Origin: Anaerolineae bacterium
Lineage (GTDB): Bacteria > Chloroflexota > Anaerolineae > J102
DNA length: 40,057 nt
Assembly (NCBI GenBank): GCA_026991225.1
Contig: JALXCB010000158.1
Coordinates: 1-40,057 of the forward strand
Reading direction: 5' to 3'
The translations under genes and the position numbers were made by a program. Shown piece after piece: positions 9,487 through 36,024 of this stretch. A model generated the notes under the pieces. The model searched no databases and was not told the origin of the DNA. It saw only the letters and a list, made by a program, of their open reading frames with translations. The first letter of the stretch is position 1, and every line of letters starts with the position of its first letter.

Positions 9487-9491
9487 GGCGA

Positions 9492-11003: not shown

Positions 11004-11005
11004 GA

Positions 11006-12871: not shown

Positions 12872-12940
12872 TGCATTTTCTCCTTATAATCGTCCAGGGC
12901 CAATGTCCATATCAATGAACTTGACCTCAGACCTCTGAAA

Positions 12941-13411: not shown

Positions 13412-13558
13412 GGATCGTCTTCCTCGACTTTGAGAAAAGGTTGGTTGTTGAAAATCATCTTGCTCCTATTTTACATGCCCCTGCCCCCAAACATAAAGAA
13501 CCGAGGCCCAAAAAATGGAGGTATGACAGGTTTTTTCGCATCGCGTCATGGGGTCTGT

Positions 13559-15276: not shown

Positions 15277-15353
15277 GGGACTCCTTATTGGAAACAGTGT
15301 TGGGTGGTTTGCAAGAGATTCGCCAGACCGACTTGGGTCGCGTCTGCCACGGG

Positions 15354-15413
15354 CGTGATGCGTGAAAATGTGAAACGTGAGGGCTTTACGCATCACGCAT
15401 CACGGTTCACGTC
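15354..15413. repeat. Inverted GTGATGCGTGA-type repeat
   Basis: Between hisD and the aminotransferase gene, CGTGATGCGTGAAAATGTGA is followed a few bases later by the complementary series ACGCATCACGCATCACGGTT, which would form an imperfect long hairpin. It is one of several low-complexity palindromic repeats in the intergenic spaces here. Confidence 0.5.
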
Positions 15414-15489
15414 ATTGGCTTCCCGCGCCACCCTGGCCGCGAGGCGCTTTCGCCCGTATTGGCGGGGCGTGGCTCGTGCCGCCTGCCGC

Positions 15490-16818
15490 TTATCCTATGC
15501 GCTCGCGGGCGGAGGCGGCGTGCGCGTCCAGGCCCTCGGCGTCGGCGATGCGGGCGGCGATGGCGCTGAGCGCGGCCCCGGCTTCGGGCGTCAGCGCAAT
15601 GAGGCTGATGCGCTTGACGAAATCCTCCACATTGACGGGGGAAGCGTAGCGGGCCGTGCCCTCGGTGGGCATGATGTGGCTGGGCCCGGCGATGTAGTCG
15701 CCCAGCACCTCGAAGCTGCTTTCGCCCACGAAAACGCCCCCGGTGTGACGCACCAGAGGGACGAGGGACCAGGGATCGGCTACGGAGAGGCAGAGATGCT
15801 CGGGCGCGTAGCGGTTGGCTTCCTCCACCGCGGTCGCCAGGTCAGGCGTGATGACCGCGCCCCCGCGGGCGGGGAGGGATTGGGCGATGATCTGCGCCCG
15901 GCTCAGGGTCGTCACCCGCTCAGTCACCTCATCCCGCACGGCCTCCGCCAGCTCCCGGCTGGGTGTGAGGAGGATGGCGGTGGCCAGGATGTCATGTTCG
16001 GCCTGGGCCAACAGGTCGGCCGCGACCATGCCGGGATGGGCGCTGGCGTCCGCGATGACGATGGTCTCGGTGGGCCCGGGCAGTCCATCGATGCCCACGA
16101 CGCCGAAGACCTGGCGTTTGGCCAGGGTGACGAACAATCCGCCCGGCCCCACGATTTTATCCACCGGCGCGATGCTTTCCGTGCCGAAGGCCATGGCGCC
16201 GATGGCCTGGGCTCCGCCCAGGGCGTAGAGTTCGTCGATCTCGGCGATGGCGGCCGCGGCCAGGATGACGTCGGGGATGCGGCCAGTCTTGCGGTTGGGC
16301 GGGGTCATGGCGATGACGCGCTGGACGCCAGCGACGCGGGCGACGACCGCGGCCATGAGCAGGGAGGAGGGCAAGGGCGCGCTGCCGCCGGGAACGTAGA
16401 CGCCCACCGAATCCAGCGGGCGCACGAGCTGCCCCAGCGTGCCGTCCTCATCCTGATGAATCCAGGAATGCGCGGGCTGGCGGCGGTGGAAGGCGGCGAT
16501 GCGGTCGGCCGCGGCCCACAGAGCCTCCCGCAGGTCGGGGTCGATGCGCTCCAGGGCCGCGTCCCACTGGTGGGAGGGGACGGCGACGCTCTCGGCCCGG
16601 ACGCCGTCGATGCGCTCCATCCAATGGCGCAGCCCCGCGTCGCCCTGCTCCCGGATATCGGCCAGGACCCGGGCGACGGCCTGCTCGGGCGTGAGGCGCT
16701 GGCCGAAGATGCGCTCGATGCCGTCCAGCAGGCTGTCGGGATAGTCGGTTTCGGACCAGCCCCGGCGCTGGAGGATGGTTCGTCGGGCGGTTTCGAGGTC
16801 GTAGATGGGGAAGTTCAT
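15490..16818 (-). CDS. hisD: Histidinol dehydrogenase
   Basis: 442 residues, the normal size. It oxidises L-histidinol to L-histidine with two NAD+ in the last two steps of histidine synthesis, using a Zn2+ site. Family blocks are LDSVGVYVPGGSAPLPSSLL, ALGGAQAIGAMAFGTESI, VDKIVGPGGLFVTLAKR, GPTETIVIADASAHP, LLAQAEHD, and YAPEHLCLSV with the catalytic Glu-His pair. The start ATG at 16818 fits the family N-terminus. No other his gene is in the window. It is transcribed away from serS across a repeat-filled 950-bp gap. Confidence 0.93.
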   Translation of the reverse strand: MNFPIYDLETARRTILQRRGWSETDYPDSLLDGIERIFGQRLTPEQAVARVLADIREQGDAGLRHWMERIDGVRAESVAVPSHQWDAALERIDPDLREALWAAADRIAAFHRRQPAHSWIHQDEDGTLGQLVRPLDSVGVYVPGGSAPLPSSLLMAAVVARVAGVQRVIAMTPPNRKTGRIPDVILAAAAIAEIDELYALGGAQAIGAMAFGTESIAPVDKIVGPGGLFVTLAKRQVFGVVGIDGLPGPTETIVIADASAHPGMVAADLLAQAEHDILATAILLTPSRELAEAVRDEVTERVTTLSRAQIIAQSLPARGGAVITPDLATAVEEANRYAPEHLCLSVADPWSLVPLVRHTGGVFVGESSFEVLGDYIAGPSHIMPTEGTARYASPVNVEDFVKRISLIALTPEAGAALSAIAARIADAEGLDAHAASARERIG

Positions 16819-17444: not shown

Positions 17445-17740
17445 AAGTGCATATCCCAAAGACGATGACGGAGACGAGTAGTCCGTGACCGGGTCTCAGA
17501 GAGCTGCCGGGTGGTGCAAGGCAGTGACGCCGGACGGATGAAATCCCCTCCCGAGTCGCCCGTCCGAACCGCTTTCTGCGCAGTAAGTCGGGTCGGTTGG
17601 CCGCCGTTAGAGGCCGGTATTCAGTAATCAGTGCTGAAGGCTGGATGCTGAATCATGGAGGTCGCGGTCGCGAGGCCGCGGCGAATCCAGGTGGCACCAC
17701 GAGCGCCCCCTCGTCCTGGAACGAGCGGGCGTTTTTTCTT
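17445..17740 (+). ncRNA. T-box leader upstream of serS
   Basis: The ~330-nt untranslated leader has T-box landmarks: a stem I region with GACGGAGACGAG and CTCAGAGAGCTGCCGGGTGG, a TGAAATCCCCTCCCGAG segment that would hold the specifier loop, and the T-box sequence AATCCAGGTGGCACCACG at 17684-17701, complementary to the tRNA acceptor end. A terminator stem follows (CGCCCCCTCGT 17704-17714 with ACGAGCGGGCG 17721-17731, then six T). Uncharged tRNA should favour anti-termination and serS expression. A TCC (Ser) triplet at 17544-17546 is the likely specifier, though an overlapping ATC cannot be excluded without folding. T-box control of aminoacyl-tRNA synthetases is established knowledge; the specifier call is inference. 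Confidence 0.82.
17704..17737 (+). terminator. Regulated intrinsic terminator of the T-box
   Basis: An 11-bp stem with one mismatch, a loop of CCTGGA and a following run of six T. The 5' side starts directly after the T-box sequence, which is the normal arrangement in which the anti-terminator competes for the same bases. Confidence 0.8.
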
Positions 17741-24953: not shown

Positions 24954-25020
24954 GGTTGGGGAATGGGCAGGGGGCGAGTTTGCGGGAACTCGGGTCTTCT
25001 GTCTTTCTGGCCTTCTGAAT

Positions 25021-25049
25021 TTGGCAGACGGGGCGGAAATCGCTATAAT
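25021..25049 (+). promoter_or_regulatory. Promoter of the left tRNA-Thr gene
   Basis: TTGGCA (25021-25026), a 17-bp spacer and TATAAT (25044-25049) lie just upstream of the left tRNA copy and outside the 80-bp repeat, so this is host DNA. No terminator follows the left tRNA, so transcription can continue into the integrase gene at 25216. Confidence 0.75.
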
Positions 25050-25058
25050 TATACATGC

Positions 25059-25138
25059 AAACGCCACCCTAGCTCAGCCGGTAGAGCAACGCACTCGTAA
25101 TGCGTCGGTCGCCGGTTCGAATCCGGCGGGTGGCTCCT
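25059..25138 (+). repeat. Left attachment repeat (attL)
   Basis: Identical over 80 bp to 35800-35879; the match ends at 25058 (C versus A) and 25139 (T versus G). It contains the entire tRNA gene plus 4 bp upstream and 3 bp downstream. The strand-exchange point lies somewhere inside it and cannot be placed more exactly from sequence. Confidence 0.92.
25063..25135 (+). tRNA. tRNA-Thr(CGT), left copy
   Basis: 73 nt folds as a full cloverleaf: acceptor GCCACCC/GGGTGGC, D stem GCTC/GAGC, anticodon stem ACGCA/TGCGT with loop CTCGTAA (anticodon CGT at 25096-25098), variable loop CGGTC, T stem GCCGG/CCGGC with loop TTCGAAT, discriminator T. CCA is not encoded. It has the host promoter upstream and the element's integrase downstream, and is probably the functional copy. 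Confidence 0.95.
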
Positions 25139-25140
25139 TT

Positions 25141-25187
25141 GCACAACATGTTGGGGTTGGGTGCAAATAAGCCACAAGGTGTAGTGG
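25141..25187. promoter_or_regulatory. Two 16-bp palindromic sites, left end (P1, P2)
   Basis: P1 GCACAACATGTTGGGG (25141-25156) and P2 CCACAAGGTGTAGTGG (25172-25187) match the right-end site CCACAACATGTTGTGG at 14 and 13 of 16 positions. Their centres are 31 bp apart, as for the right-end pair. The pair starts 2 bp inside the tRNA repeat. Probable binding sites for a recombinase or directionality factor; the role is inferred. Confidence 0.7.
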
Positions 25188-25189
25188 GT

Positions 25190-25214
25190 GCGCCTCTCGA
25201 ACCGCCGGAGGCGC
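25190..25214 (+). promoter_or_regulatory. Hairpin covering the integrase ribosome site
   Basis: GCGCCTC (25190-25196) is complementary to GAGGCGC (25208-25214), and the second arm contains most of the GGAGG Shine-Dalgarno sequence of the GTG start at 25216. An 11-nt loop separates the arms. If formed, it would hide the ribosome site and lower integrase translation. Confidence 0.5.
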
Positions 25215-25215
25215 T

Positions 25216-26157
25216 GTGGCCAAAAACCACCGAACCCAAAACGCCCAACTGTCCTTGATGGAGGCCGTTGAAGCCTTCATCTTGGATGGTTTGGCGCGCC
25301 GTCTATCACCGCATACGTTAGGGATTTATCGGGAAAAGCTATCGCATTTCATCACATGGGCCGAGTCGCAGCAAATCGAGACGATGGCCCATGTGGACGC
25401 GCGCGCCCTACGCCTTTATCTTGTCCACCTGCAAGAGACGGGCCATAACGCCGGTGGACAGCACACCCACGCCCGCATCCTTCGGGCCTGGCTCAATTTC
25501 CTGGAAGCGGAAGGGCTCATCATGGATTCGCCCATGCGCCGGGTGAAAATGCCGCGATTGCCGAAGCCCCAGCCGGACGTGTTGACGCGGGAGGAGGTGC
25601 AAAAGCTGCTGGATGCTGCGCAGAACAACCGGGACAAGGCGCTGATTCTGGCCCTGCTGGACACGGGCGCGCGTGTGTCTGAATTCGTGGCCCTGAACGT
25701 GGGCGACGTGGACGCGTCTGGGGCTGTGCAAATCCATCATGGCAAGGGAGATAAGGCCCGCACTGTCTATCTTGGCTACAAGGCCCTGAAGGCGCTCAGA
25801 CGTTGGCTGTGGGAGCGTGAGGACGCCTACACGCTCGATTCTCCCTTGTGGACGTCCCTTCACCACCCTGAGCGCGGCGTGAGGCTCACCACCAACGCCG
25901 TGCGCCTCATCCTTGTCCGCCTGGGGCAACGGGCGAAGTTGACACGCCGCATCTCGCCCCACATGTTCCGCCGCACGTTTGCGCTGTGGTGTCTGCGCGA
26001 TGGGATGGATATCTACACCCTGGCCCGCCTCATGGGCCATGCCGACATTGCCACCTTACGCCATTATCTGGCCCTGGCCGAGATGGACGCCGCGGCCGCG
26101 CACCGACGACATGGGCCAGTGAACGGCTATCTTAGCTCACAGGAGGGAGACTCATGA
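25216..26157 (+). CDS. Tyrosine recombinase, left integrase
   Basis: 313 residues, GTG start with GGAGG 5 bp upstream. The N-terminal SAM-like DNA-binding domain (about 12-100) reads AFILDGLARRLSPHTLGIYREKLSHF. The catalytic domain has the full set R153 (DTGARVSEF), K177 (HGKGDKART), H249 and R252 (SPHMFRRTF), H275 (MGHADIATL) and the nucleophile Y284. It resembles XerC/D-type integrases and should act on the tRNA-Thr attachment site. It lies 77 bp after the left tRNA and overlaps the next gene by ATGA. In the integrated state it can be read from the tRNA promoter; in the circle, from the right-end promoter. Confidence 0.93.
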   Translation: MAKNHRTQNAQLSLMEAVEAFILDGLARRLSPHTLGIYREKLSHFITWAESQQIETMAHVDARALRLYLVHLQETGHNAGGQHTHARILRAWLNFLEAEGLIMDSPMRRVKMPRLPKPQPDVLTREEVQKLLDAAQNNRDKALILALLDTGARVSEFVALNVGDVDASGAVQIHHGKGDKARTVYLGYKALKALRRWLWEREDAYTLDSPLWTSLHHPERGVRLTTNAVRLILVRLGQRAKLTRRISPHMFRRTFALWCLRDGMDIYTLARLMGHADIATLRHYLALAEMDAAAAHRRHGPVNGYLSSQEGDS

Positions 26158-26630
26158 GCCGATGGCGCAACACAACCGACGTCCTGCCCCCTGAGGGCGT
26201 GCCTATCATTGCCCGCTGGCCCGATGGCGCAACGCACCACGCCATCCTTCACCAGACGCCCGAGGCTGTCATCTGGGAGGTGGAAGGGGACAAAGAGACG
26301 CCGCCCGAGGCGTGGCGTTACGCGGGCCATGAGGCCGCCGGACTCATGAAAGCCAATCTCGCCAAGTCCTGGTGGTATCCCGCTATGGGGTTGTTTGTGG
26401 GCGGCCTGATTGCCATGGCCGCGCCCCTGGGCGGACTGCTCCTCATCGGGGGCGTGCTGGCTGTGTGGATTCTCTTTTCAGCCTTCCAGAGCGCCGGGGA
26501 GGCTGTGGCCGCCCGCCGCGGGGGCCTGTCCGGCCTGCTGCTGGGCGCGTTTGTGGCCCTGGCCCCGATGGCCACCATCATTGCCGCGTGTCTGGCCTTT
26601 GTCGTGCACCTATGGAGGTTTTACCAATGA
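26154..26630 (+). CDS. Membrane protein of unknown function, translationally coupled to integrase
   Basis: 158 residues. The soluble N-terminal half reads RWRNTTDVLPPEGVPIIARW...HHAILHQTPEAVIWEVEGD, a small beta-rich fold loosely like domains that begin W...LPPEG. The second half has three or four hydrophobic segments, including YPAMGLFVGGLIAMAAPLGG and then LLLIGGVLAVWILFSAF, and ends at FVVHLWRFYQ. Its ATG overlaps the integrase stop by 4 bases, and its own stop overlaps the next gene by 4 bases. The coupling puts two membrane proteins in the integrase operon; a role in surface exclusion or membrane anchoring is only a guess. Confidence 0.7.
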   Translation: MSRWRNTTDVLPPEGVPIIARWPDGATHHAILHQTPEAVIWEVEGDKETPPEAWRYAGHEAAGLMKANLAKSWWYPAMGLFVGGLIAMAAPLGGLLLIGGVLAVWILFSAFQSAGEAVAARRGGLSGLLLGAFVALAPMATIIAACLAFVVHLWRFYQ

Positions 26631-27109
26631 GCAAGCGCAAGTCCACCATCATCGAATTGAAGCCCGTTTCATCCCTGGATGACCCCAACGCGCCCCAAAC
26701 CTATGTCCCCGTGCGCGCCCCCGACGCCGGGCCGGGCGACTTGGCAACGGTGGACGCGGCCGCGTTGGCGGAACGGCAAATGACAGCCCAGCCCGTGGTG
26801 GAAAAGCTGGTTGGCAGTTATCAAGACCGCGCCATCGGCTTCTCTATCAAGACGTGGCAGGTGTCGCTTTTGTTTGGCGTCATCGCCTGGCTGTTGGCCC
26901 GCGTGGGCGCGGGCGTGCCCCTGTTCAGCGTGCGGGCACTGCTCATCCTTGCCCTGGGCGCGGGCGTGGTGTGGTTTGCCGCGTTCGCCTTGGACTTGCT
27001 GCTATCGCCCGCGGGGGTGGCGTGGTACAAGGCCCGTCGCTTCTGGAATTACATGGACAGGGAGCAGAAGGAACGCTTCGACTACTGGCGCAGCCTGCGC
27101 CGGGACTAA
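26627..27109 (+). CDS. Membrane protein of unknown function
   Basis: 160 residues, with GGAGG before the ATG and a 4-base overlap with the previous gene. A polar, partly disordered N-terminal part (about 1-75) contains LKPVSSLDDPNAPQTYVPVR. Two hydrophobic helices follow (about 85-103 and 108-130, with LFGVIAWLLARVGAGVPL and LLILALGAGVVWFAAFALDLLL). A basic and aromatic tail, WYKARRFWNYMDREQKERFDYW, comes last. I do not recognise a family. Together with the previous gene it may form one membrane complex. Confidence 0.65.
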   Translation: MSKRKSTIIELKPVSSLDDPNAPQTYVPVRAPDAGPGDLATVDAAALAERQMTAQPVVEKLVGSYQDRAIGFSIKTWQVSLLFGVIAWLLARVGAGVPLFSVRALLILALGAGVVWFAAFALDLLLSPAGVAWYKARRFWNYMDREQKERFDYWRSLRRD

Positions 27110-27140
27110 ACCCATCTCTCACCCAAGGAGGCTTTTTCTC

Positions 27141-27446
27141 ATGGAACGCATCCAAATGCAACGCATCATCGACGGCATCCGCTACGACACCGAGAAGGCG
27201 ACTCTCATCGCTCACAATGTCTTTTGGGACGGCCACAACTTCGAGCGACATGGGCGCAACACGTGGCTTTATCGCACGCCCAACGGGCGTTACTTCACCG
27301 TGACGGGCACCCTGTGGCAGGGGGAGCGGGACACGCTGCGCCCTGTGGACGAAGAAGAAGCCCGCCGTCTGTACGAAACCATGTTGCCCGAGCATGAAGT
27401 GCCCTACGAAGAGGCGTTTCCCCATATCACCATCCAAGACGCGTGA
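27141..27446 (+). CDS. Small hypothetical protein, phage/plasmid type
   Basis: 101 residues with a strong AAGGAGG site. The sequence IIDGIRYDTEKATLIAHN...NTWLYRTPNGRYFTVTGTLW resembles small proteins often seen in phages and plasmids (pattern GxxYdTekA...LYrTpxGxyF). Their function is unknown. A C-terminal acidic helix follows. It is the first of three small unknown genes before the gap at 28379. Confidence 0.65.
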   Translation: MERIQMQRIIDGIRYDTEKATLIAHNVFWDGHNFERHGRNTWLYRTPNGRYFTVTGTLWQGERDTLRPVDEEEARRLYETMLPEHEVPYEEAFPHITIQDA

Positions 27447-27454
27447 GGTGAATC

Positions 27455-27775
27455 ATGAACCGAATGATGGTTTCTTGCTACAAAGGATTGGCCCCGGTAT
27501 CGTTTCCCGCGGATTGGATTGAGGGAATCGACTATGAGCATAGTTTTGCCGCCGCGGGAGGACGGGCGCAGATACGTTTCCCTAATGGCAAGGCGTTTGA
27601 GGTTTGGGTGACATCACCGCCCGACTTCGGCAAAGTGGAGCGCCATGTCCGACGCCTGTCTGATGAGGAGATTGCCCGCATTCCCTGGGGGCCTTTCTGT
27701 CCGCCGTGGGAGAGCTACCAAACGGCCAAGCTGTTTGGCCACGCTGCGCCCATCGAGTTGGATAAGGTGGATTGA
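27455..27775 (+). CDS. Small hypothetical protein
   Basis: 106 residues; GAGGTG precedes the ATG. The protein looks like a compact beta-rich fold (VSFPADWIEGIDYEHSF...RAQIRFPNGKAFEVWV) followed by a helix VERHVRRLSDEEIARIPWG. It starts 8 bp after the previous gene, so it is in the same transcript. No family recognised. Confidence 0.6.
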   Translation: MNRMMVSCYKGLAPVSFPADWIEGIDYEHSFAAAGGRAQIRFPNGKAFEVWVTSPPDFGKVERHVRRLSDEEIARIPWGPFCPPWESYQTAKLFGHAAPIELDKVD

Positions 27776-27835
27776 CAACCCCTCTCGCCGCCGCCGTGGC
27801 CCCGAGGCGGACAAAGTATCGGGGCGGAGAATGTC

Positions 27836-28378
27836 ATGGACAGACAAATCAGCGCCTTCTACGCCCGCAAGCCCGAGGTGCGCCGGGAGAGCCGCACGGT
27901 GTACCGCAAGGCCCACCAGCGGGCCAAGAAAAAGGCGGAGAGCCTTTCGCGATTGGCCAAGGCGAGGGCCGCCGCGGAACTCGCCCACGAAGCCCTGCAC
28001 GCGGTGGCCGTGTTGGCCTATGAAACTTTGAAGGATGGCACGCCCGTGAACGTGGACCCAGTGACGGGCGATTTGCTGGTAGTCGCGCCCTGGAGCTCGA
28101 AACGATATCACGAGTATGGGCTGCGCCGTTCTGAGGCGGACGTGCTACGGGCCTATCTGCTGCAATTGCAAGCCCTGGCGCGAAAGGGGAAGACGGCCCT
28201 TCCGCCCCTGTTTACCTTCGACGTGGTGAGCCGCCGTTGGGCCGTGAACAAAGCCGACTATCCCACCTTCGAGGCTGCGGAGCGCTGGCTGGCCAGATAC
28301 CAGCTCACGCCCGAAGCGTGGCTTCAGTGGCGCGACCATATCCGCAAGAAGCGCCGGAAGTGGCGGAAGAAGGGGTGA
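27836..28378 (+). CDS. Hypothetical basic protein
   Basis: 180 residues, strongly basic at both ends (RKAHQRAKKKAESLSRLAKA near the N-terminus; RDHIRKKRRKWRKKG at the C-terminus), with a helical centre. The charge suggests nucleic-acid contact, but no known domain is visible. GGAG lies upstream of the ATG. It closes the integrase-proximal gene series; the next gene has its own promoter. Confidence 0.55.
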   Translation: MDRQISAFYARKPEVRRESRTVYRKAHQRAKKKAESLSRLAKARAAAELAHEALHAVAVLAYETLKDGTPVNVDPVTGDLLVVAPWSSKRYHEYGLRRSEADVLRAYLLQLQALARKGKTALPPLFTFDVVSRRWAVNKADYPTFEAAERWLARYQLTPEAWLQWRDHIRKKRRKWRKKG

Positions 28379-28482
28379 ACCACGCCGCGCACGGTGTGAA
28401 CCAACCCCCGCGCCCCACCGGGCAAAGGGTGGACTAAACCCGCCCACAACGAAACGCAATCCGACCCGTTCCCTTTTTTAGC

Positions 28483-28491
28483 TGATATAAT
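28483..28491 (+). promoter_or_regulatory. Extended -10 promoter before the 231-residue gene
   Basis: TGATATAAT at 28483-28491 is a perfect -10 box with the extended TGN motif; the -35 region is weak, as is usual for this type. It stands in the 168-bp gap 28379-28546, which otherwise holds nothing recognisable. Confidence 0.6.
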
Positions 28492-28546
28492 AGACTTCTC
28501 TAGCCAAATCTGGGCAACATAATCAATACTGAAAGGAGAACCTGCC

Positions 28547-29242
28547 ATGCCAAACAAGCAAAGGATATTCCCCGATTATCACGAGGTGAAGGCAATGTAC
28601 AACCGTGGCGAGCCCGATGGATGGGAGCCCGTGAAGGGCAAAAAAGCGTTCGTTAAAAAATGCTTCGCAAGAGAATTGCGAGCAGCCGGTTATGAATTGC
28701 CGCCCACATTTTCGGACGATGATTTGGTGGAATTGGAAACGTCTATAGAGACTTATGTTTTTCGTTTCGAAGACGAAGTCATTGACCCAGAACAAAATAA
28801 GGTTGTTTCCAGAATAGAAATCGAGGGGCCTCAAGAGATATTGCCCAGAGTCATTGAGGAAGAATTTGGCGGCCTTATTCAAGTACTGAAAAGTACGTAT
28901 GTTGACCCTATGAAAAGCATCGGACAGGCAATAAAAGACATGAGCCAAAGCTTGAAAAGGGACATTGTTGTACGTCTCAGGAAAAGCCCCAGCAATCTAT
29001 GGGAGATTAAAGCGATACCCAAAAAGCGTCCTGGGGGTAGACCGCCCTTAAAACACATTACGAAAGGACTTGAACTTGTCGATAATGGCATGACACCCCC
29101 CGAGGCATTCGCGAAGCTGGTGGAGAATGGCGACATCTCAATAGAGGGAGCAACGAACTTCGAGTATCAGCGCAATTACGAAGAAGAAGAAAGAAAATTC
29201 AGCGAATCCATTAAAAAAAGAAAGTCTAGACGCGGCGTGTGA
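28547..29242 (+). CDS. Hypothetical protein with AT-hook-like motif
   Basis: 231 residues, AAGGAG before the ATG. Base composition is clearly more AT-rich than the flanking genes, which suggests separate acquisition. The N-terminal two thirds is acidic and helical. Near residue 165 comes IPKKRPGGRPPLK, similar to an AT-hook (K/R-P-x-G-R-P). A helix KHITKGLELVDNGMTPPEAF and a very charged tail EEEERKFSESIKKRKSRRG follow. Minor-groove DNA binding is plausible; the function is otherwise unknown. It lies upstream of the copy-control module and might be an element regulator or cargo. Confidence 0.6.
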   Translation: MPNKQRIFPDYHEVKAMYNRGEPDGWEPVKGKKAFVKKCFARELRAAGYELPPTFSDDDLVELETSIETYVFRFEDEVIDPEQNKVVSRIEIEGPQEILPRVIEEEFGGLIQVLKSTYVDPMKSIGQAIKDMSQSLKRDIVVRLRKSPSNLWEIKAIPKKRPGGRPPLKHITKGLELVDNGMTPPEAFAKLVENGDISIEGATNFEYQRNYEEEERKFSESIKKRKSRRGV

Positions 29243-29291
29243 TAATGTTCTTCTGATTTGAGTTTGTCCCCTTTTTGTCCCCCTTTCATTT

Positions 29292-29313
29292 TGCGATAAT
29301 GAGTGTAACACAC
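29292..29313 (+). promoter_or_regulatory. Promoter and possible operator of the RHH gene
   Basis: TGCGATAAT (29292-29300) is an extended -10 box. Directly downstream, at the expected start of transcription, is GTGTAACAC (29303-29311), a symmetric site followed by ACTGTAT. A small ribbon-helix-helix repressor acting on its own promoter would bind a site like this. Upstream lie two similar TTTGTCCCC tracts. Confidence 0.45.
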
Positions 29314-29354
29314 TGTATTTTTCAATCCACCCTTTCATTTTTGGAGAAGCGTCC

Positions 29355-29513
29355 ATGTCCACCCCGATTAAAACTGTACGCATTCCCCCGTCTCTACGCG
29401 AGGCCATCCGCATCGAAGCACAGAAGCAAGGTAGCAATGAGAGTGACATTATCCGCCGGGCGCTGCGCGAACACTTGCGCACCCAATCCCAACACAAGGA
29501 GAACTCCCAATGA
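29355..29513 (+). CDS. Small ribbon-helix-helix repressor, CopG-like
   Basis: 52 residues with GGAGA upstream of ATG 29355. The beta strand PIKTVRIPPSLREAIRIEAQ, a turn KQGSNES and the helix DIIRRALREHLRTQ form the Arc/MetJ/CopG ribbon-helix-helix fold. Such proteins dimerise and bind short palindromes. Its position before an antisense RNA and the replication gene is that of CopG in pLS1/pMV158-type plasmids, where CopG represses the joint copG-rep promoter. The stop overlaps the next start by ATGA. Assignment as a copy-number repressor is inference from layout and fold. Confidence 0.8.
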   Translation: MSTPIKTVRIPPSLREAIRIEAQKQGSNESDIIRRALREHLRTQSQHKENSQ

Positions 29514-30043
29514 ACGCCACAAAAAAAGCCCCGTGGGCAGACGGGGCGACACTAAGAGGGGCAATGCGAAGCTTTGCTTCTGCCCCCATTGTAGCAGATG
29601 ACGCGCGCGGCGTCAAGGGTCGCGGCGTGCCCATCTACGTGAACGGGCGCGCTGTGGGCCATGTCGAGGGCGACACGTTCTACAAGACGCTGCGGGCGTC
29701 TGTCCACTTCCTGAAGCGCCCGCCCGCTATCGCCTTCGACGTGTCCAGCCTTTTCGACGCCCAGGACGCGGGCGCAACAAAGGTGCATATCACTGACCAG
29801 GAGACGGGGCGCGTGTATGTAGCCCGCATCGCCGACATTCTGCGGGATGGTCGCCGGTTCAACCGGGGCTTTGGCGACCAGGTTTACTATCTGCTGACCC
29901 GCTGGCGACACCCCGACGCACCGCAGCAAATGACCCTCTTCGACGCCCTCGAATGTGGGGAGGCCCGGCCCGGTCGCCAAACTAGAACGGGCCTCCCCCG
30001 AGGCGAAAGCCTCCTCTCGCGAGAGAAGGAGGTAGCCTCATGA
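29510..30043 (+). CDS. Hypothetical protein between copy control and primase
   Basis: 177 residues from ATG 29510, which overlaps the RHH stop; an in-frame ATG at 29564 with AAGAGG upstream would give 159 residues and better avoids the low-quality N-terminus. The core reads GVPIYVNGRAVGHVEGDTFYKTLRASVHFLKRPPAIAFDVSSLFDAQDAGATKVHITDQETGRVYVARI, a mixed alpha/beta domain. I recognise no family. The antisense RNA at 29521-29581 covers its 5' end including the second ribosome site. Its stop overlaps the primase start by ATGA, so its translation probably controls primase translation. Confidence 0.65.
   Translation: MNATKKAPWADGATLRGAMRSFASAPIVADDARGVKGRGVPIYVNGRAVGHVEGDTFYKTLRASVHFLKRPPAIAFDVSSLFDAQDAGATKVHITDQETGRVYVARIADILRDGRRFNRGFGDQVYYLLTRWRHPDAPQQMTLFDALECGEARPGRQTRTGLPRGESLLSREKEVAS
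29521..29581 (-). ncRNA. Predicted ~61-nt antisense RNA, copy-number control type
   Basis: On the minus strand a start near 29581 (7 bp after a TACAAT box) leads to a perfect intrinsic terminator at 29547-29521: GCCCCGT, loop CTGCCC, ACGGGGC, then seven T. The 5' part has a second hairpin GAAGC-AAA-GCTTC. The RNA is fully complementary to the 5' end of the gene at 29510, including the ATG at 29564 and its ribosome site, and to the + strand hairpin 29558-29586. Size, two-hairpin form and position next to a CopG-like gene are those of plasmid counter-transcribed RNAs. Not experimentally known. Confidence 0.65.
29588..29616 (-). promoter_or_regulatory. Promoter of the antisense RNA
   Basis: On the minus strand, TTGACG (29616-29611), a 17-bp spacer and TACAAT (29593-29588). 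Both boxes match the consensus at 5 of 6 bases with optimal spacing. It lies inside the coding sequence of the 177-residue gene, pointing towards the RHH gene. Confidence 0.65.
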
Positions 30044-32184
30044 TTGTATCACAGAGTGTGTTGCAACGCATCCCCAGCGAATTGCGCGAGCTGCGCCGCT
30101 GGATTGTGCATCGGGACAAAAAGCCCTGGAACGTGACCACCGACCGTCCCCTTGCGGGATGGCAGAAACCGGGGGCGTGGATGGGCTTCAAGGAAGCCAT
30201 TCCCCTTGTCGCCCAGGGGTTGGCCGATGGCCTGGGTTTTGTCTTCGCTGGCAACAACACGCCTTTTGTGGGCCTCGATTTGGATGATTGCGTGAGTTGG
30301 GAAGGCGGTGAGGCCACCCTGAACGCGTGCGCGTCGGGGATGCTTGACCTTTTCCCCGTCGCCTACTGGGAGTACTCGCCCAGCGGGAAGGGCCTGCATT
30401 GCATCGTGAAAGCCGCCCCGAGCGCCTGGGAGGGCGTGTCGAAGCTGAAGGTGCAAAACTTCGAGGATTGCACCAATGTTGAGATTTTCGCCAACGCCGG
30501 GTATCTCACCTTCACGGGCAACACGTGGCAGGATGAGGTCAGCTTCGAGGATTACACCGGGGAACTGGCCGAGCTGATTCGCGTTCTGGGGGCGCATAAG
30601 CGCCGGGGGCAGGTGAAACCTATCCCGGCATCCAATAACGGCCACAGAGCGCCTGAGAGCGCCCTAGAGGACGCCCTGACGCCCGAGGACGTGCGGGCCT
30701 GCCTGGACGTCATCCCAGCGGATGATTATGACGTTTGGATTAAGGTCGGGGCCGCGCTCAAAACCGAGCTGGGAGACGCGGGCTTCACGCTGTGGGATGA
30801 TTGGAGCGCCAAGAGTCCCAACTACGGGGACACCGTGGACAAATGGCCGCGGCTGCCCACCGGGGCGACCTACGGAAGCCTTATCGCCCTGGCCCGCGAC
30901 TTCCAACCTGGCTTTCTGACGCCCAGCGCCCAGGCCCTGAAGGCGCGAGCCAACGGAAACCGGCACATGACCAGGGGCAACAAGGGGGAACGCACAGAGA
31001 GAGAGCCGCCGCCTTGGCTGGGCCACCCGAAAGCTGAAGAGGCGCAGGCGTTACCCCCCGAACCGGCTATCTGGGAGCGCTGGGCCGCGGGAGCCCTGGG
31101 GTTGGCGCAGGCGTTGGAGGGGCGGGAATCGCCGCCCTGGGTGGTGGATAGATTCATTCGCGCTGGAAGCCTGAACATTGTCTATGGCGCGCCTGGCAGC
31201 ATGAAGTCCATGCTCCTGGCCGACCTGGCCCTTTGTGTGGCCGCGGGCCGTTCCTGGCTGGAAGGAAAACGCCTGAAAGACTGGATGAAAGCGGACGAAA
31301 CCCCCGGCATTCCCACCCTGGCCCGTCCTGTCATTTGGCTTGACCTGGACAATGGACGTCTGACCACCCTCGACCGGTTTGGGGCGCTGGCCCGCGGGCA
31401 TGGCGCGGCCCCGGACGCGCCACTGCATATCCTGGCCATGCCGCAGCCCTGGCCCACATTGGACAATGATGACAACGCCCGAGCGTTGGAACTTCTGACA
31501 TTAGCCTATAATGCCGGGCTAATCGTCATCGACAATCTAGGGTTGGTGGCCGGGCAAATCGAAGAAAACAACGCCCGCATGGCCTCAGTGATGGGCCGTC
31601 TTCGCAACCTGGCGGAGGAGACCGGGGCCGCGGTCGTGGTCATCCATCACCAGCGCAAAGCGGGCGTTTTGGGGCCAGGCGTGCGCCGTGGGGAGAGCCT
31701 GCGCGGGCATTCCAGTATCGAGGCGAGCCTGGACAGCGCCTTTCTAATCGAGCGGGAGGAGGGAAGCGATAAAGTGCAGCTAATTCCCACGAAAATTAGA
31801 AATGGGCCTTGGCCCAAGCCGCTGGTCGCCATCTTCACCTACACACATAAGCCTGATGGGAATGATTTGCAGGAAGCCCGTTTCTTCCAAACGGAGCCAG
31901 ATAAGGCGAACACAGAGACACGTTTGACCCTGGAAATCCTGCGCCATGCCGATGAGGCTGAAGGTAAAACGAAGCTGGTGGCCATGGTCCAAGTTGCATG
32001 GGGAGATGATGCTACCAGACCGGGCGAAAAGACCATTCGCGCCCATATCGAAAAGCTGGTAGCCAAGGGCCTTTTAGAGGAGGAGCCGCCACCGCCTGGA
32101 AAGGGTGCGCGGGCGGGAAAACGCTATCGTTTGACGCCAGATGGATGGCATTTTTTGAACGCCAACGGAGGCGAAAATGGCTGA
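30040..32184 (+). CDS. Primase-polymerase/helicase replication protein
   Basis: 714 residues. Residues 1-165 form an archaeo-eukaryotic-type primase-polymerase domain: metal ligands D80 and D82 in FVGLDLDDC, the SxH-type motif SPSGKGLH with H120, and a later VEIF...GYLTFTG. Residues 211-288 form a PriCT-2 domain (DVRACLDVIPADDYDVWIKVGAALK). Residues 375-600 are a RepA-like AAA ATPase with Walker A GAPGSMKS (383-390), LIVIDNLGLV as Walker B, and AVVVIHHQRKAG as sensor. The C-terminus is a winged helix (TIRAHIEKLVAKGLL). It should unwind and prime the element's own origin. ATGA overlap with the gene before; an iteron array follows. Confidence 0.88.
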   Translation: MIVSQSVLQRIPSELRELRRWIVHRDKKPWNVTTDRPLAGWQKPGAWMGFKEAIPLVAQGLADGLGFVFAGNNTPFVGLDLDDCVSWEGGEATLNACASGMLDLFPVAYWEYSPSGKGLHCIVKAAPSAWEGVSKLKVQNFEDCTNVEIFANAGYLTFTGNTWQDEVSFEDYTGELAELIRVLGAHKRRGQVKPIPASNNGHRAPESALEDALTPEDVRACLDVIPADDYDVWIKVGAALKTELGDAGFTLWDDWSAKSPNYGDTVDKWPRLPTGATYGSLIALARDFQPGFLTPSAQALKARANGNRHMTRGNKGERTEREPPPWLGHPKAEEAQALPPEPAIWERWAAGALGLAQALEGRESPPWVVDRFIRAGSLNIVYGAPGSMKSMLLADLALCVAAGRSWLEGKRLKDWMKADETPGIPTLARPVIWLDLDNGRLTTLDRFGALARGHGAAPDAPLHILAMPQPWPTLDNDDNARALELLTLAYNAGLIVIDNLGLVAGQIEENNARMASVMGRLRNLAEETGAAVVVIHHQRKAGVLGPGVRRGESLRGHSSIEASLDSAFLIEREEGSDKVQLIPTKIRNGPWPKPLVAIFTYTHKPDGNDLQEARFFQTEPDKANTETRLTLEILRHADEAEGKTKLVAMVQVAWGDDATRPGEKTIRAHIEKLVAKGLLEEEPPPPGKGARAGKRYRLTPDGWHFLNANGGENG

Positions 32185-32193
32185 TTTTTTGCC

Positions 32194-32366
32194 TGCCAAA
32201 CGGGGGGGCCGTTTGGCAACGGCTTGCCAAACGGGAATTGAGGGCCGTTTGGCACGTTTGGCAGCCGTTTGGTCACCGTTTGGCAGCGTTTGGCAAGCCG
32301 TCTTCCGTAGTGCGCAGACCCCGTTTGGCATTTGGCACACACTATATAGGTGTGTGTGCCAAACGG
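32194..32366. repeat. Iteron array with central dyad, candidate replication origin
   Basis: TGCCAAACGG or its complement occurs at 32194, 32209, 32225, 32245, 32255, 32265 (one change), 32276, 32287, 32321 and 32357, in both orientations, within 173 bp. The unit is 9-10 bp with about ten copies. Around the last two, TTTGGCACACAC (32331-32342) and GTGTGTGCCAAA (32352-32363) form a perfect 12-bp inverted repeat around TATATAGGT. The array follows the replication gene by 10 bp. Iterons plus an AT-rich dyad next to rep are typical of plasmid origins. A putative 76-codon frame through it is an artefact. Confidence 0.78.
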
Positions 32367-32411
32367 GAAACGCAACGCCCCCTTTTTTGTTGACCAAACC
32401 CACCTAGAGCA

Positions 32412-32630
32412 ATGGACGTGAGAGCACAAGTCGCGAAGGTGGACGCGCTTCTTGCCGAACTGCATCGCGAAGCATGGCGCACCCGTCCCCGTACCGAGCG
32501 ATTGCGCACCCTCGCCGAAGATTTGGCGTGGGAAATCGAGCCTTTGCGGGCGCGATTGTTGAACGAAGACCCCCTTCCTGACCTGCGGGCCTTGTCCCGC
32601 ACCCACAGAATAGGAGAGACCTACCCATGA
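32412..32630 (+). CDS. Small helical hypothetical protein
   Basis: 72 residues, ATG 32412, entirely helical and charged (DVRAQVAKVDALLAELHREA...RTERLRTLAEDLAWEIEPLR). It lies directly after the iteron array and overlaps the next gene by ATGA. Function unknown; there is no recognisable DNA-binding motif. Confidence 0.55.
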   Translation: MDVRAQVAKVDALLAELHREAWRTRPRTERLRTLAEDLAWEIEPLRARLLNEDPLPDLRALSRTHRIGETYP

Positions 32631-33295
32631 CCACCGAAGCACAACCCATCACCGAAGCCGAAGCCGAGGCCCTGCTGGCCCGTGTGGTCCGCGAGAAGGC
32701 CGCCACCGAAGCGCGCCTGAGCAAGACGCGCACCGAACTGGGAGAGCCGCTATACAAGCCCGAGCGACAAGCGCAAGCCGAAGCCAACGCCCGCGCACCC
32801 TTCGAGGCTGCCCTGAGCGCAACGCTGGCCCGGGCCCGCGCCGTAGAGGATGCGGCAACCGACGAACTGCGAAAGTTGGATGATATGCCCATCGCCCCAC
32901 TGCTGGACACCGACACGCTGCAACGCGCCGCCGCTATGCGCCCGTTTGCCGAAGATGAAGCCGAGCGCCTGGACGCTAAGCGCCTGGCTGCCCGTCTGGC
33001 CGCGCTGGACGGAAGCGACAAGGCCGCCGTGCTGGCATGGCGCACCGCTGCAGAAAAGCGCCTGGCTGTCATGATGGGCGACCTGGCAGAAAATCCGGCA
33101 CATGTAAGCCTGCGCCTCGCAATCAATGACTTGAAATCTGCGATTGCTAATCTGCGATTGCCGGAAGAGCGCGAGCTGGACGCCAGGCGCCGCAAGCTGA
33201 CAGACCAAAAACTATTGGCCCGGCAATTGCGCCTGCAGGCCGAAGCGCTGTCACCGGAAAAGCAAAAAGAAATCCTACAACGCTATGGAGTTTGA
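32627..33295 (+). CDS. Coiled-coil hypothetical protein
   Basis: 222 residues, very rich in Ala, Glu, Arg and Leu, and predicted to be almost wholly alpha-helical with coiled-coil character (ITEAEAEALLARVVREKAAT; AVEDAATDELRKLDDM; LTDQKLLARQLRLQAEAL). Such proteins near an HTH of terminase small-subunit type occur in phages and phage-derived elements, but no specific family is recognised. It is preceded by an ATGA overlap and followed directly by the HTH gene, so the genes 32412-34234 form one transcript. Confidence 0.6.
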   Translation: MTTEAQPITEAEAEALLARVVREKAATEARLSKTRTELGEPLYKPERQAQAEANARAPFEAALSATLARARAVEDAATDELRKLDDMPIAPLLDTDTLQRAAAMRPFAEDEAERLDAKRLAARLAALDGSDKAAVLAWRTAAEKRLAVMMGDLAENPAHVSLRLAINDLKSAIANLRLPEERELDARRRKLTDQKLLARQLRLQAEALSPEKQKEILQRYGV

Positions 33296-33296
33296 C

Positions 33297-33677
33297 ATGA
33301 CCGCGCAAAAGAAGACACAGCGAAAATTGTCAACAAAGCAACGAAAGGCTATTCGCGCCCTGCTGGCCGGAATGAACGTGAGCGACGCCGCAGACGCCGC
33401 AGACGTGGCCCGTGGTACGCTATACACCTGGTTTGACAATCCCGACTTTATGGCGGAACTGCGAGCCGCAGAGCAAAAGGCGCTAGATGACGTGGCGCGC
33501 CGTATGGCGGGATTGACAGATAAGGCCGTTAACGTGCTGAAAGCGCAGATGGAAGACGAGCGAAGCGCCCAGGCATTAAGGGCTGCCCGCACTGTCATAG
33601 ACGCCGCCTTGAGGCTGCGCGAGGCCGTGGCCCTGGAAGAGCGCATCGCCGCCCTTGAGGCCCAGGTGGAAAAATGA
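33297..33677 (+). CDS. HTH protein resembling phage terminase small-subunit-like (phBC6A51-type) proteins
   Basis: 126 residues from ATG 33297; an alternative ATG lies 12 bp upstream. A helix-turn-helix LSTKQRKAIRALLAGMNVSDAADAADVARGTLYTWFDNPDFMAELR is followed by a long helix with DDVARRMAGLTDKAVNVLKAQM and RAARTVIDAALRLREAVALEERIAALE. This pattern is found in small phage HTH proteins sometimes called terminase small-subunit-like. No terminase large subunit exists here, so it may be a regulator or partition factor, or help a helper phage package the element. ATGA overlap with the next gene. Confidence 0.65.
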   Translation: MTAQKKTQRKLSTKQRKAIRALLAGMNVSDAADAADVARGTLYTWFDNPDFMAELRAAEQKALDDVARRMAGLTDKAVNVLKAQMEDERSAQALRAARTVIDAALRLREAVALEERIAALEAQVEK

Positions 33678-34234
33678 GCATCTTAGCACGCCTGCGCCGC
33701 CTGGAAGCCGCCATCACGCCAATTGACGCGGGCCCATTCTACTATGCCGTAGAGGATGAGGCCGGCATCACGCCCGAGATGGCCGGGGCAAAGGTTTACA
33801 TCGGCATAAGCCCCCGAGACTGGGATGACACGCCGGAAGATGATGAGGAGGCCATGAGCATCAAAGCACGTCTGAAAACGATAGAAAAAAGCCTGGCAAG
33901 GCGCGCAAAGAAAGACACCCATCTTGTCATGGTCTGGCCGGAAGAGGCATCGGAAGATGAAGATATGCAACACATAAAAATGACCTGGGGCGACACGCCG
34001 GAAGATGACGAAGACGCCGTCACCTTGCGCGTGGTATATGACACGCCGCCCCAGGCCACTGAGACGCCCCAGAAGGCCACACAGACGCCTGAGACGCTTC
34101 CTAAGCCATCACCGCAGCCGTGGCAGCCGCCACAGAAGACGCGGGCCGAACTGCTAGAAGCAGAACTGGCAGCCGAAGAGCGCCGCATGAGACGTCACAA
34201 CATAGAAATGCAAAAGCGTTTGAGGCACCGCTAG
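33674..34234 (+). CDS. Hypothetical protein with tandem internal duplication
   Basis: 186 residues. The opening MSILARLRRLEAA recurs at residue 61 as MSIKARLKTIEKS, and the segment WDDTPEDDEEA recurs as WGDTPEDDEDA, so the protein is a tandem duplication. The second unit starts with an in-frame ATG at 33854 preceded by GAGGAGG, so a shorter product may also be made. A Pro/Gln/Thr linker (TPPQATETPQKATQTPETLP) and a charged helix follow. The function is unknown. Confidence 0.6.
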   Translation: MSILARLRRLEAAITPIDAGPFYYAVEDEAGITPEMAGAKVYIGISPRDWDDTPEDDEEAMSIKARLKTIEKSLARRAKKDTHLVMVWPEEASEDEDMQHIKMTWGDTPEDDEDAVTLRVVYDTPPQATETPQKATQTPETLPKPSPQPWQPPQKTRAELLEAELAAEERRMRRHNIEMQKRLRHR

Positions 34235-34446
34235 CCAAGCGCGCCGAAGGCTGGACTTACCAGCGGATTGCAGACGCCGCGGGCGTGAGCACAAAAACGG
34301 CCCAGCGGGTTGCCGGTGATGTAACTTTGTCACATGACAAAGTTGTTGGCCGCGACGGCAAGGCCCGCCCCGCCCGCTACGAGCGCCGGGCGCAAGCAAA
34401 GAACGCGCAAAGATTCGCGAATGGGTTTAGGGCATCGGGAGCTTGA
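34120..34446 (+). CDS. Putative ParB-type HTH DNA-binding protein
   Basis: 108 residues from GTG 34120, but only the part from about residue 36 looks conserved: LAKRAEGWTYQRIADAAGVSTKTAQRVAGDVTLSHDKVVGRDGKARPARYERRAQAK. EGWTYQRIADAAGVSTKTAQR is a helix-turn-helix, and VVGRDGKARPA is a common sequence after such domains in ParB-like and element regulators. The start is uncertain: the frame overlaps the preceding gene by 115 bp and has no good ribosome site, so a frameshifted fusion with the 186-residue protein is possible. A perfect 9-bp inverted repeat AACTTTGTC/GACAAAGTT (34323-34344) lies within it. Confidence 0.55.
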   Translation: MAAATEDAGRTARSRTGSRRAPHETSQHRNAKAFEAPLAKRAEGWTYQRIADAAGVSTKTAQRVAGDVTLSHDKVVGRDGKARPARYERRAQAKNAQRFANGFRASGA

Positions 34447-34495
34447 CAAACCCCGTTTTGAGGTGTATAATAGCTTATGAAAATGTATCTTTTCA
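34443..34495 (+). promoter_or_regulatory. Consensus promoter of the right integrase with dyad at +1
   Basis: TTGACA (34443-34448), a 17-bp spacer and TATAAT (34466-34471): a perfect consensus promoter. At the start point lies TGAAAA-N6-TTTTCA (34478-34495), a symmetric site that could be an operator. A promoter this strong would need repression in the quiescent state. Confidence 0.75.
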
Positions 34496-34520
34496 AAATC
34501 TATTGCACTGAGAGGACGCC

Positions 34521-35468
34521 ATGACGCACCTGCCCATCCCCACCCAAACCGCCGCCATCGAGCCGCACCGCGAGACGGCCAACCCCGCCCTTGTCTATCT
34601 CGCTTCCCTGCCCTCGCCCGAGTCCCGCCGCGTCATGCGCAGCGCGCTTGACGCCATCGCCCGCATGGTGAACCCCGAAGCCGCGGTGGAAACTTTCCCG
34701 TGGGCCTCGCTGCGTTTTGAGCATGTGGCCGCCATCCGCAGCGTCCTCATGGAACGCTACGCACCCGCCACCGCCAACCGTCATCTGTCCGCCCTCAAGG
34801 GCGTGCTCAAGGCCGCGTGGCAATTGGGCCTCATGTCCGACGCCGACTATATGCGGGCCGTGGACGTGAAAGGCGTCAAAGGCGAAACCTTGCCCACAGG
34901 CCGCATGTTGGACGCGTCCGAGGTGGCCGCGGTGGTGGCCGCGTGCAAAGCCGATAGCACCCCCGCGGGCGCGCGCGACGCCGCCCTGTTGGCCGTCATG
35001 CTGGCGGGAGGGCTGCGCCGGGCCGAAGTGGTGGGCCTCGACGTTGACGACTACAACCCTGAAACGGGCGAGCTCACCGTGCGGCATGGCAAAGGCCGCA
35101 AGGAGCGCATCGTGTGGCTCACCAACGGCGCCCGCCGGGCGCTGAACGCCTGGCTGGACGTGCGAGGCCGCGAACCCGGCCCGCTGTTCATGCCCATCAA
35201 TAAGGGCGGGCGCATCATTCCCAAACGGATGACTTCCCAAGCTGTTTACAACGTCCTGCGCAAGCGGGCCGAACAGGCGGGCGTCAAACCCTTCACACCC
35301 CACGACATGCGCCGCACTTTTGCCTCCACCCTTCTGGACAATGGCGCGGATTTGGCCGTGGTGTCCAAACTCATGGGCCATGCGAATATCACCACCACCG
35401 CCCGCTACGACAGGCGAGGCGAAGAGGCCAAGCGGGCCGCCGCGAGCCTGTTCCACTTCCCCTACTGA
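34521..35468 (+). CDS. Tyrosine recombinase, right integrase
   Basis: 315 residues, ATG 34521 with GAGAGG upstream. The N-terminal SAM-like domain (about 20-110) has RYAPATANRHLSALKGVLKA. The catalytic residues are complete: R166 (GGLRRAEVVGL), K191 (HGKGRKERI), H261 and R264 (TPHDMRRTF), H287 (LMGHANITTT) and the nucleophile Y296. It differs in sequence from the left integrase throughout, so the two are not a recent duplication. It ends 331 bp before the right repeat. It may serve integration, excision or resolution of replicated multimers. Confidence 0.93.
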   Translation: MTHLPIPTQTAAIEPHRETANPALVYLASLPSPESRRVMRSALDAIARMVNPEAAVETFPWASLRFEHVAAIRSVLMERYAPATANRHLSALKGVLKAAWQLGLMSDADYMRAVDVKGVKGETLPTGRMLDASEVAAVVAACKADSTPAGARDAALLAVMLAGGLRRAEVVGLDVDDYNPETGELTVRHGKGRKERIVWLTNGARRALNAWLDVRGREPGPLFMPINKGGRIIPKRMTSQAVYNVLRKRAEQAGVKPFTPHDMRRTFASTLLDNGADLAVVSKLMGHANITTTARYDRRGEEAKRAAASLFHFPY

Positions 35469-35474
35469 GCGCGT

Positions 35475-35503
35475 TTGACACCCGCGCGCGGGTGTGATAC
35501 AAT
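35475..35503 (+). promoter_or_regulatory. Outward promoter with an 18-bp palindrome
   Basis: TTGACA (35475-35480), a 17-bp spacer and TACAAT (35498-35503) with TGA just before it. The spacer and part of the -35 box form the perfect palindrome ACACCCGCGCGCGGGTGT (35478-35495), an obvious operator candidate. It points to the right end of the element. Confidence 0.75.
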
Positions 35504-35509
35504 CGAGCC

Positions 35510-35656
35510 ACGACATACAAAACGCCCCCGAGCGACGCCGAGAACGTCACCCGAGGGCTAACCCCAACCGCTGTGGGCGCAGCGGAGGGGCTACGAGAAT
35601 TCTAACAGAACTCGAAGCCAATCCCAAGCCCACAGCGAAGCCGCGGTGGGCTTTTC
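35510..35656 (+). ncRNA. Predicted structured leader or small RNA ending in a terminator
   Basis: From the predicted start near 35510 to the terminator is about 147 nt without a convincing gene. A hairpin CCGCTG/CAGCGG (35568-35585) is extended by CCCC/GGGG (35562-35565, 35587-35590). A terminator AGCCCAC...GTGGGCT (35627-35652) is followed by TTTT. CGCTGTGGGC (35569-35578) is also exactly complementary to GCCCACAGCG (35628-35637), which is the 5' side of the terminator. The three helices exclude one another, as in an attenuator or riboswitch. It could instead be a stable small RNA. Ligand or trigger unknown. Confidence 0.55.
35627..35656 (+). terminator. Intrinsic terminator of the right-end transcript
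   Basis: Seven base pairs AGCCCAC/GTGGGCT, one mismatch, three further inner pairs and a small loop, followed by TTTT. Its 5' side can alternatively pair with 35569-35578. Confidence 0.65.
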
Positions 35657-35749
35657 TGTATCAATGGCCTACCGTTTTCGGGCCTTGTTTTTCATGCGAT
35701 TTTGAACAGCGAACCACCCTAAAAAAGCCTTAACACCTACTTGACGCAC

Positions 35750-35796
35750 CTACTACATGTAGTGGTTTTATGAAGTCAAACCACAACATGTTGTGG
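35750..35796. promoter_or_regulatory. Two 16-bp palindromic sites, right end (P3, P4)
   Basis: P4 CCACAACATGTTGTGG (35781-35796) is a perfect palindrome; P3 CTACTACATGTAGTGG (35750-35765) is nearly so. Centres are 31 bp apart and P4 ends 3 bp before the repeat. This mirrors P1/P2 at the left end, so the four sites are arranged symmetrically about the element. Confidence 0.75.
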
Positions 35797-35799
35797 TAA

Positions 35800-35879
35800 A
35801 AACGCCACCCTAGCTCAGCCGGTAGAGCAACGCACTCGTAATGCGTCGGTCGCCGGTTCGAATCCGGCGGGTGGCTCCT
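35800..35879 (+). repeat. Right attachment repeat (attR)
   Basis: Identical copy of 25059-25138, offset 10,741 bp. It is followed by the host terminator at 35882, so the chromosome resumes here. Confidence 0.92.
35804..35876 (+). tRNA. tRNA-Thr(CGT), right copy
   Basis: Identical in all 73 positions to the left copy, anticodon CGT at 35837-35839. It lacks the host promoter; a poor TTGACG/TTTTAT pair (35741-35771, spacer 19) or read-through from the 35475 promoter are the only visible sources of transcription. It has the native terminator just downstream. Confidence 0.93.
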
Positions 35880-35881
35880 GC

Positions 35882-35908
35882 ATCCCGGCCCAATGGGTCG
35901 GGATTTTT
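35882..35908 (+). terminator. Intrinsic terminator of the host tRNA-Thr gene
   Basis: ATCCCGGCCC, loop AAT, GGGTCGGGAT and then T5: a 10-bp stem with one G-T pair. It starts 5 bp after the right tRNA copy, outside the element, and would end both tRNA and right-end element transcripts. Confidence 0.8.
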
Positions 35909-36024
35909 GTTTTGGGCGGTTGGAACGGCGACTTGACAGAGCCCTCGCAAGTGGTGAAAATGCTACGCATGCGGGAGCGAGACCCCTTGCAAAACCCATG
36001 ACCTGAAGGTTTCAAACCTGGATA

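Follow-up and report, generated by a model that had tools for sequence, protein, structure and literature searches.

Several arrangements of small cis-antisense RNAs have been described in mobile DNA. Plasmids pT181 and pIP501 serve as models for antisense attenuation, in type I toxin-antitoxin systems a small RNA encoded in cis lies antisense to the start of a small gene, and the OOP RNA of phage lambda opposes the 3' part of cII. To our knowledge, the known antisense copy-number controls are each bound to one initiator family. The countertranscript RNAII of plasmid pMV158 is given in PMC4485353 as 48 nt long with a 17-nt single-stranded 5' tail, and the satellites P4 and PLE carry regulatory non-coding RNAs, described in PMC7567579 as matching the leaders of several genes. 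Here we examine a locus in an Anaerolineae genome of 3.87 Mb, where the window, that is, the whole 40,057-nucleotide stretch of DNA analysed, lies within one contig. A sequence-only reading had proposed that a CopG-like repressor and an antisense RNA exert dual control over a primase operon. From the signals reported below we consider it likely (probability about 0.7) that the locus is the control head of a replication operon, combining an RHH repressor with a cis-antisense RNA and acting as a copy-number brake. In the literature on antisense RNA in integrative or satellite elements, copy-number control and Chloroflexota, the arrangement was absent by title and abstract, with subscription journals thinly covered.

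Results

The element and its replication operon

The operon belongs to an integrated element, as the sequence-only reading had supposed, which spans ~10.7 kb between two identical tRNA-Thr copies (table 1). A tyrosine integrase stands at either end, and besides the replication genes and a terminase-small-subunit-like (TerS-like) gene the remaining cargo consists of small genes without assigned function. In a same-genus genome (G260:C209), a lone tRNA-Thr directly joins the left flank to 34 bp of the right flank, a junction consistent with an empty site, although little of the right flank is matched. In another genome of this genus, ~13.7 kb separates two tRNA-Thr copies (G189:C153, ~2198-16014; L076 and L081), which suggests another insertion at the same tRNA-Thr site with a different interior and no P0002. 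Outside the element, the window also bears a T-box leader at 17456-17721 (RF00230, 108.9 bits).

The RHH gene is the first of the operon. The start of the next gene, P0002, overlaps its stop by ATGA (29510-29513), and the stop of P0002 overlaps the primase-helicase start in the same way (30040-30043). The sequence signals and the ATGA overlaps agree with the proposed order, in which an RHH gene and then a gene for a cis-antisense RNA head a replication operon with coupled translation. Upstream, at 29286-29325, an extended -10 in TGCGATAAT is followed by AGTGTAACACACT, a small inverted repeat without a score from the repeat finder; the two form a possible sense promoter and RHH operator. Downstream of the primase gene there are ~10 copies of the CCGTTTGGCA-like repeat, and the 9-mer CGTTTGGCA occurs nine times in this region and nowhere else in the window, which makes it a plausible origin.

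Table 1. Features of the element and its replication operon, in window coordinates.
Feature	Position	Strand	Basis or remark
Presumed attL, left tRNA-Thr(CGT) direct repeat copy	25059..25138	+	ARAGORN, exact 80-bp repeat
Tyrosine integrase, element left end	25216..26157	+	PF00589 E=1.9e-34
P0001, 52-aa RHH (CopG-type) putative repressor	29355..29513	+	PF01402 RHH_1 E=3.1e-6, above gathering score
AAGGAG Shine-Dalgarno match for upstream P0002 start 29510	29496..29501	+	sequence, SD scan
P0002, 177 aa, undescribed family	29510..30043	+	
Predicted ~61-nt antisense RNA	29521..29581	-	start point inferred, ~7 nt after -10
Intrinsic terminator hairpin	29528..29547	-	U tract 29521-29527
AAGAGG (29554-29559) and in-frame ATG 29564, alternative P0002 start, beneath predicted RNA	29554..29566	+	
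Antisense promoter -10 TACAAT, TGn extension	29588..29593	-	
Antisense promoter -35 TTGACG	29611..29616	-	
QMTLF, sliding-clamp-binding-motif-like, P0002 residues 140-144	29927..29941	+	
P0003 primase-helicase	30040..32184	+	PriCT_2 + AAA_25, N-terminal DNA primase PHROG
Iteron-like CCGTTTGGCA repeats, putative origin	32194..32367	both	directly 3' of primase gene
Terminase-small-subunit-like (TerS-like) gene	33285..33677	+	phrog_2538 E=2.2e-10
Second tyrosine integrase, element right end	34521..35468	+	PF00589 E=1.5e-35
Presumed attR, right tRNA-Thr direct repeat copy	35800..35879	+	ARAGORN, exact 80-bp repeat

A predicted antisense RNA at the start of P0002

The minus-strand promoter and terminator reported earlier are both present within the first 36 codons of P0002. 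The promoter shows 10 of 12 consensus matches with a 17-nt spacer and a TG one base before the -10, and the terminator, 41-60 nt downstream of the -10, has a perfect 7-bp stem, a loop of 6 and seven T. The predicted fold of the 61-nt RNA consists of the terminator and two small hairpins (-20.7 kcal/mol, z -2.75); if transcription starts at 29581, the first hairpin would lack its outer 5' arm. Either signal alone is weak, because similar sites are common both in the region 25000-36000 and in its shuffles (8 promoter-like sites vs. 2.6 in shuffles; 20 terminator-like sites vs. 13.7). When P0002 was recoded 1000 times with its own codons and the protein kept, none of the recodings carried an equally good promoter-terminator pair (P = 0.001), with P = 0.0075 to 0.009 for the promoter alone and P = 0.072 for the terminator alone. 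Rfam gave no family at gathering score near the antisense site. The best sub-threshold Rfam matches (E = 0.25 and 0.42) were taken as chance.

The in-frame ATG and the AAGAGG site named in the sequence-only reading do lie beneath the predicted RNA, and the RNA carries CCCCUCU, complementary to AAGAGG, in a predicted loop. This internal ATG may be the start of P0002, yet it does not stand out as such: all seven other relatives in which the RNA lies within the reading frame start upstream of the RNA with a Shine-Dalgarno (SD) match, like 29510 here. The SD of that upstream start is outside the predicted window RNA.

The P0002 family

No Pfam model matches the family of P0002. Against PHROG its members gave weak matches only (phrog_13033 in 7 of 41, best 0.0016), no match was found in GenBank phages or PLSDB plasmids, viral scans with the queries P0002, A3 and A4 returned no relative, and a PDB sequence search with the family profile gave chance-level matches only. 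With P0002 as query, matches were found in 28 of 298 genomes sampled from its class, and with A1 in 10 of 400 in a phylum-wide sample; an order-level search gave 2 of 20; the named relatives are Anaerolineae, Promineifilum and other Chloroflexi. Conservation in the family does not extend to the first ~40 residues, which are encoded opposite the predicted antisense RNA. AlphaFold gives a confident folded domain of about 100-110 residues (block means 89-98) and a floppy tail. Among the matches listed, the domain weakly resembles PD-(D/E)XK nucleases and resolvases, below kinship level (Foldseek best E = 0.021 to D212; VIA Z 5.8, rmsd 3.8, 90 aligned). The tail bears QMTLF 33 residues from the C-terminal end, and QLxLF is the bacterial sliding-clamp-binding consensus according to PMC4549789. 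Such a motif occurs in the tails of 30 of 50 members (18 of 33 cellular, 12 of 17 viral), and the 18 observed in cellular tails compare with a mean of 0.22 in shuffled tails. P0002 is probably an accessory factor of replication that would contact the sliding clamp of the host through its tail.

Replication-type genes directly follow P0002 homologs in 25 of the 31 cellular loci examined with Pfam, and these are of at least six types (the families found are AAA_25, Prim-Pol, CHC2 zinc-ribbon primase, D5_N, VapE-like, NrS-1-type and G2P-type); in the other six the next gene is HTH_36 (two), a zinc ribbon, IstB or of no family (two). The next start overlaps or touches the stop of the P0002 homolog in 22 of 33 loci and lies at most 40 nt away in 30 of 33. 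An RHH or RHH-like gene is located upstream in 21 of 33, as counted by two profiles whose seeds came mostly from these same loci (profile-profile match probability 87%). Wide flanks were retrieved for 12 loci; a tyrosine integrase is found in 10, two by weak matches, and a TerS-like gene in three.

The antisense pair in relatives

Removal of duplicates left 50 of the 68 loci with a P0002 domain; cellular genomes account for 33 of these and IMG/VR contigs for 17. A pair was scored where a minus-strand promoter of at least 8.5, with its -10 between -160 and +60 of the domain start, had a terminator of at least 13 located 35-130 nt downstream. By locus, the pair is present at the 5' end of the family gene in 18 of 33 cellular vs. 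2 of 17 viral loci; the tally for this bin is 20/49, since L008 is cut off. The 15 cellular loci that lack it by this definition include some without a U run or with a truncated contig. Other minus-strand bins mostly hold 1-6 matches per 29-50 loci, and plus-strand bins hold 0-5. Minus-strand pairs are also raised in two bins 0.9-1.7 kb upstream of P0002 homologs (13/45 and 10/29), where they perhaps belong to leftward genes or further small RNAs. At L036, the antisense pair 1.3 kb left of the match overlies an ORF whose frame differs from that of the P0002 homolog, as if the gene start were frameshifted or misassembled.

The enrichment recurred in a held-out set of 17 new loci from three family-level searches (one of which yielded none), with bin window, thresholds and RNA length range unchanged: 11 of the 17, duplicates kept and several from the single genus g35, bear the pair vs. 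22 of 201 other minus-strand bins (P ~ 1×10−6 to 2×10−7). The loss of promoter and terminator in related elements, which the sequence-only reading had named as grounds for rejection, is therefore not the general rule in either cellular set. Moreover, in 8 of 12 relatives sharing the window layout the pair exceeds synonymous recodings at P ≤ 0.016 (combined P = 1.7×10−11), and for the promoter alone 14 of 32 cellular loci reach P ≤ 0.05 (combined P = 1.1×10−12) vs. none of 17 viral loci. Because the pair is found in only 2 of the 17 viral-contig relatives and the synonymous test gives 0 of 17 there, the antisense RNA is not universal to the family. A short MGRKQKQKGNRIERKIV-type gene, which by eye looks like a Holliday-junction resolvase, lies near the P0002 relative in five IMG/VR contigs (L042-L044, L046, L048) that have no antisense RNA.

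Among 28 cellular loci with the pair, 26 had an SD-supported start, chosen mechanically, so that single loci may be wrong. The predicted RNA covers the SD in 18 of these 26, and in 14 of the 18 it covers the start codon as well. In the other eight, the window included, the hairpin ends 14-21 nt past the start codon's first base and the U tract lies nearer to it. On general knowledge, either position would obstruct an initiating ribosome. The hairpin covariation that the sequence-only reading had looked to is seen for the terminator stem in four relatives (L010, L014, L020 and L070), where 92% of cells are paired vs. 30-42% in slid controls and 4 of 13 pairs have changed on both sides; this count comes from the four-sequence alignment A7 only, as the 11-sequence alignment A8 gave shifted stems and was left out. 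Ten predicted RNAs fold better than shuffles (z -1.05 to -6.65), in part because they were picked for having a terminator.

Alternative explanations

The same stems exist on the sense strand by symmetry, and what looks like a minus-strand terminator could arise from an A-rich stretch past the start codon with a GC-rich hairpin behind it. The hairpins could thus be sense-strand mRNA elements, either start-codon-proximal structure or a slowing signal, next to incidental look-alikes of a minus-strand promoter. We regard this as quite unlikely, because a separate minus-strand -10/-35 recurs at constant spacing and outscores synonymous recodings, the same bin holds plus-strand pairs in just 1/49 and, in the held-out loci, 2/17, and the hairpin of many relatives is situated within an untranslated leader. 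A real antisense RNA might act in a way other than blocking translation: by priming replication, or by attenuating or interfering with transcription in the manner of pT181 and pIP501. In favor of this are the orientation of its promoter, from which transcription would run against the operon and might disturb it, and the iteron-like repeats nearby; on the other side, the RNA ends within ~60 nt, it covers the SD in most SD-classified loci, and plus-strand promoter-terminator pairs (pairs were scanned, not lone attenuators) are not enriched downstream of it, which leaves such modes of action rather unlikely.

A type I toxin-antitoxin pair would have this same layout, with P0002 as a harmful product and the RNA as its antitoxin. 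P0002 is, however, a folded domain of ~110 residues with a clamp-like tail rather than a small membrane peptide, it is locked to replication genes, and PADLOC matched neither P0001 nor P0002, with a single weak match to P0003. We hold this explanation to be very improbable, and a translational brake on P0002 is the reading that we follow below.

Discussion

We propose that this locus would be the replication control head of a ~10.7-kb integrative, phage-satellite-like element. The minus-strand promoter in P0002 would give a short cis-antisense RNA terminating a few codons past the P0002 start, which would pair with the nascent RHH-P0002-primase mRNA and block translation initiation of P0002. 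Translation of the primase-helicase would be blocked too, because the genes overlap by ATGA. The RHH protein may be a second, transcriptional brake, if it represses the operon as its position suggests. Since the dose of antisense RNA would follow the copy number of the element, such a system could set the copy number of the excised, replicating form, and the same pair might keep the integrated element quiet. The dual control of a PrimPol operon proposed earlier stands in that an RHH gene and a predicted antisense gene head the operon, and needs amending in that the predicted RNA is opposite the start of P0002, not the primase gene. Nor is the pairing special to a primase-helicase, because the same head of P0002 plus antisense RNA also stands before several types of primase, helicase and initiator gene.

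The best reading of this distribution is that the brake would act on a factor that putatively binds the clamp, not on the initiator itself, and would be portable between the initiators of satellite-like integrative elements. If the RNA meters a clamp-recruiting factor and not the initiator, the brake would fit primases, helicases, D5/P4-type and rolling-circle-type initiators alike. More tentatively, and at somewhat less than even odds, P0002 and its antisense RNA may form a portable, initiator-independent governor of mobile-element replication that meters a sliding-clamp-recruiting factor, with the brake acquired or kept in Anaerolineae integrative elements and absent from most viral-contig relatives of P0002. 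The sequence evidence points to a single leader gene, putatively under antisense control, that has been joined to six or more kinds of replication protein, in a phylum whose mobile elements have been little described. The host sliding clamp is thereby suggested as a new control point, and the P0002 family may serve as a marker for finding satellite-like elements in Anaerolineae.

Among known systems, the OOP RNA of lambda is similar in being short, terminated and antisense, and in its place at the border of a phage replication operon; it differs in that the RNA here opposes the 5' end of a gene heading replication genes. The element resembles PICI, P4 and PLE in its size class (10-20 kb), integrase, tRNA-type attachment repeats, replication primase and TerS-like gene, and differs from these phage satellites in having two integrases and no known helper phage. 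The closest likeness is with copG-rnaII-repB of pMV158/pLS1, where an RHH gene is also first in the operon and a countertranscript with its own promoter and terminator (here as signals only) lies over the start of the next, coupled gene. The predicted RNAs of two relatives with the hairpin in a leader (L010 and L014) also have a single-stranded 5' tail and a terminator hairpin, as RNAII does, whereas the window RNA is predicted to be folded throughout, with no single-stranded tail plus one hairpin. No RNA homology was detected by Rfam (best E = 0.25). The window RNA lies inside the reading frame just past the start codon, not in an untranslated gap, its target is a protein without a Pfam match and not an initiator, the replication genes are primases and helicases (PriCT_2 and AAA_25 in the window) instead of a RepB rolling-circle initiator, and the elements are chromosomally integrated. 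Because the controlled gene and the RNA shape differ, the system of the window is an analog of pMV158 rather than a member of its kind, and it is best read as a pMV158-like double brake, probably of independent origin.
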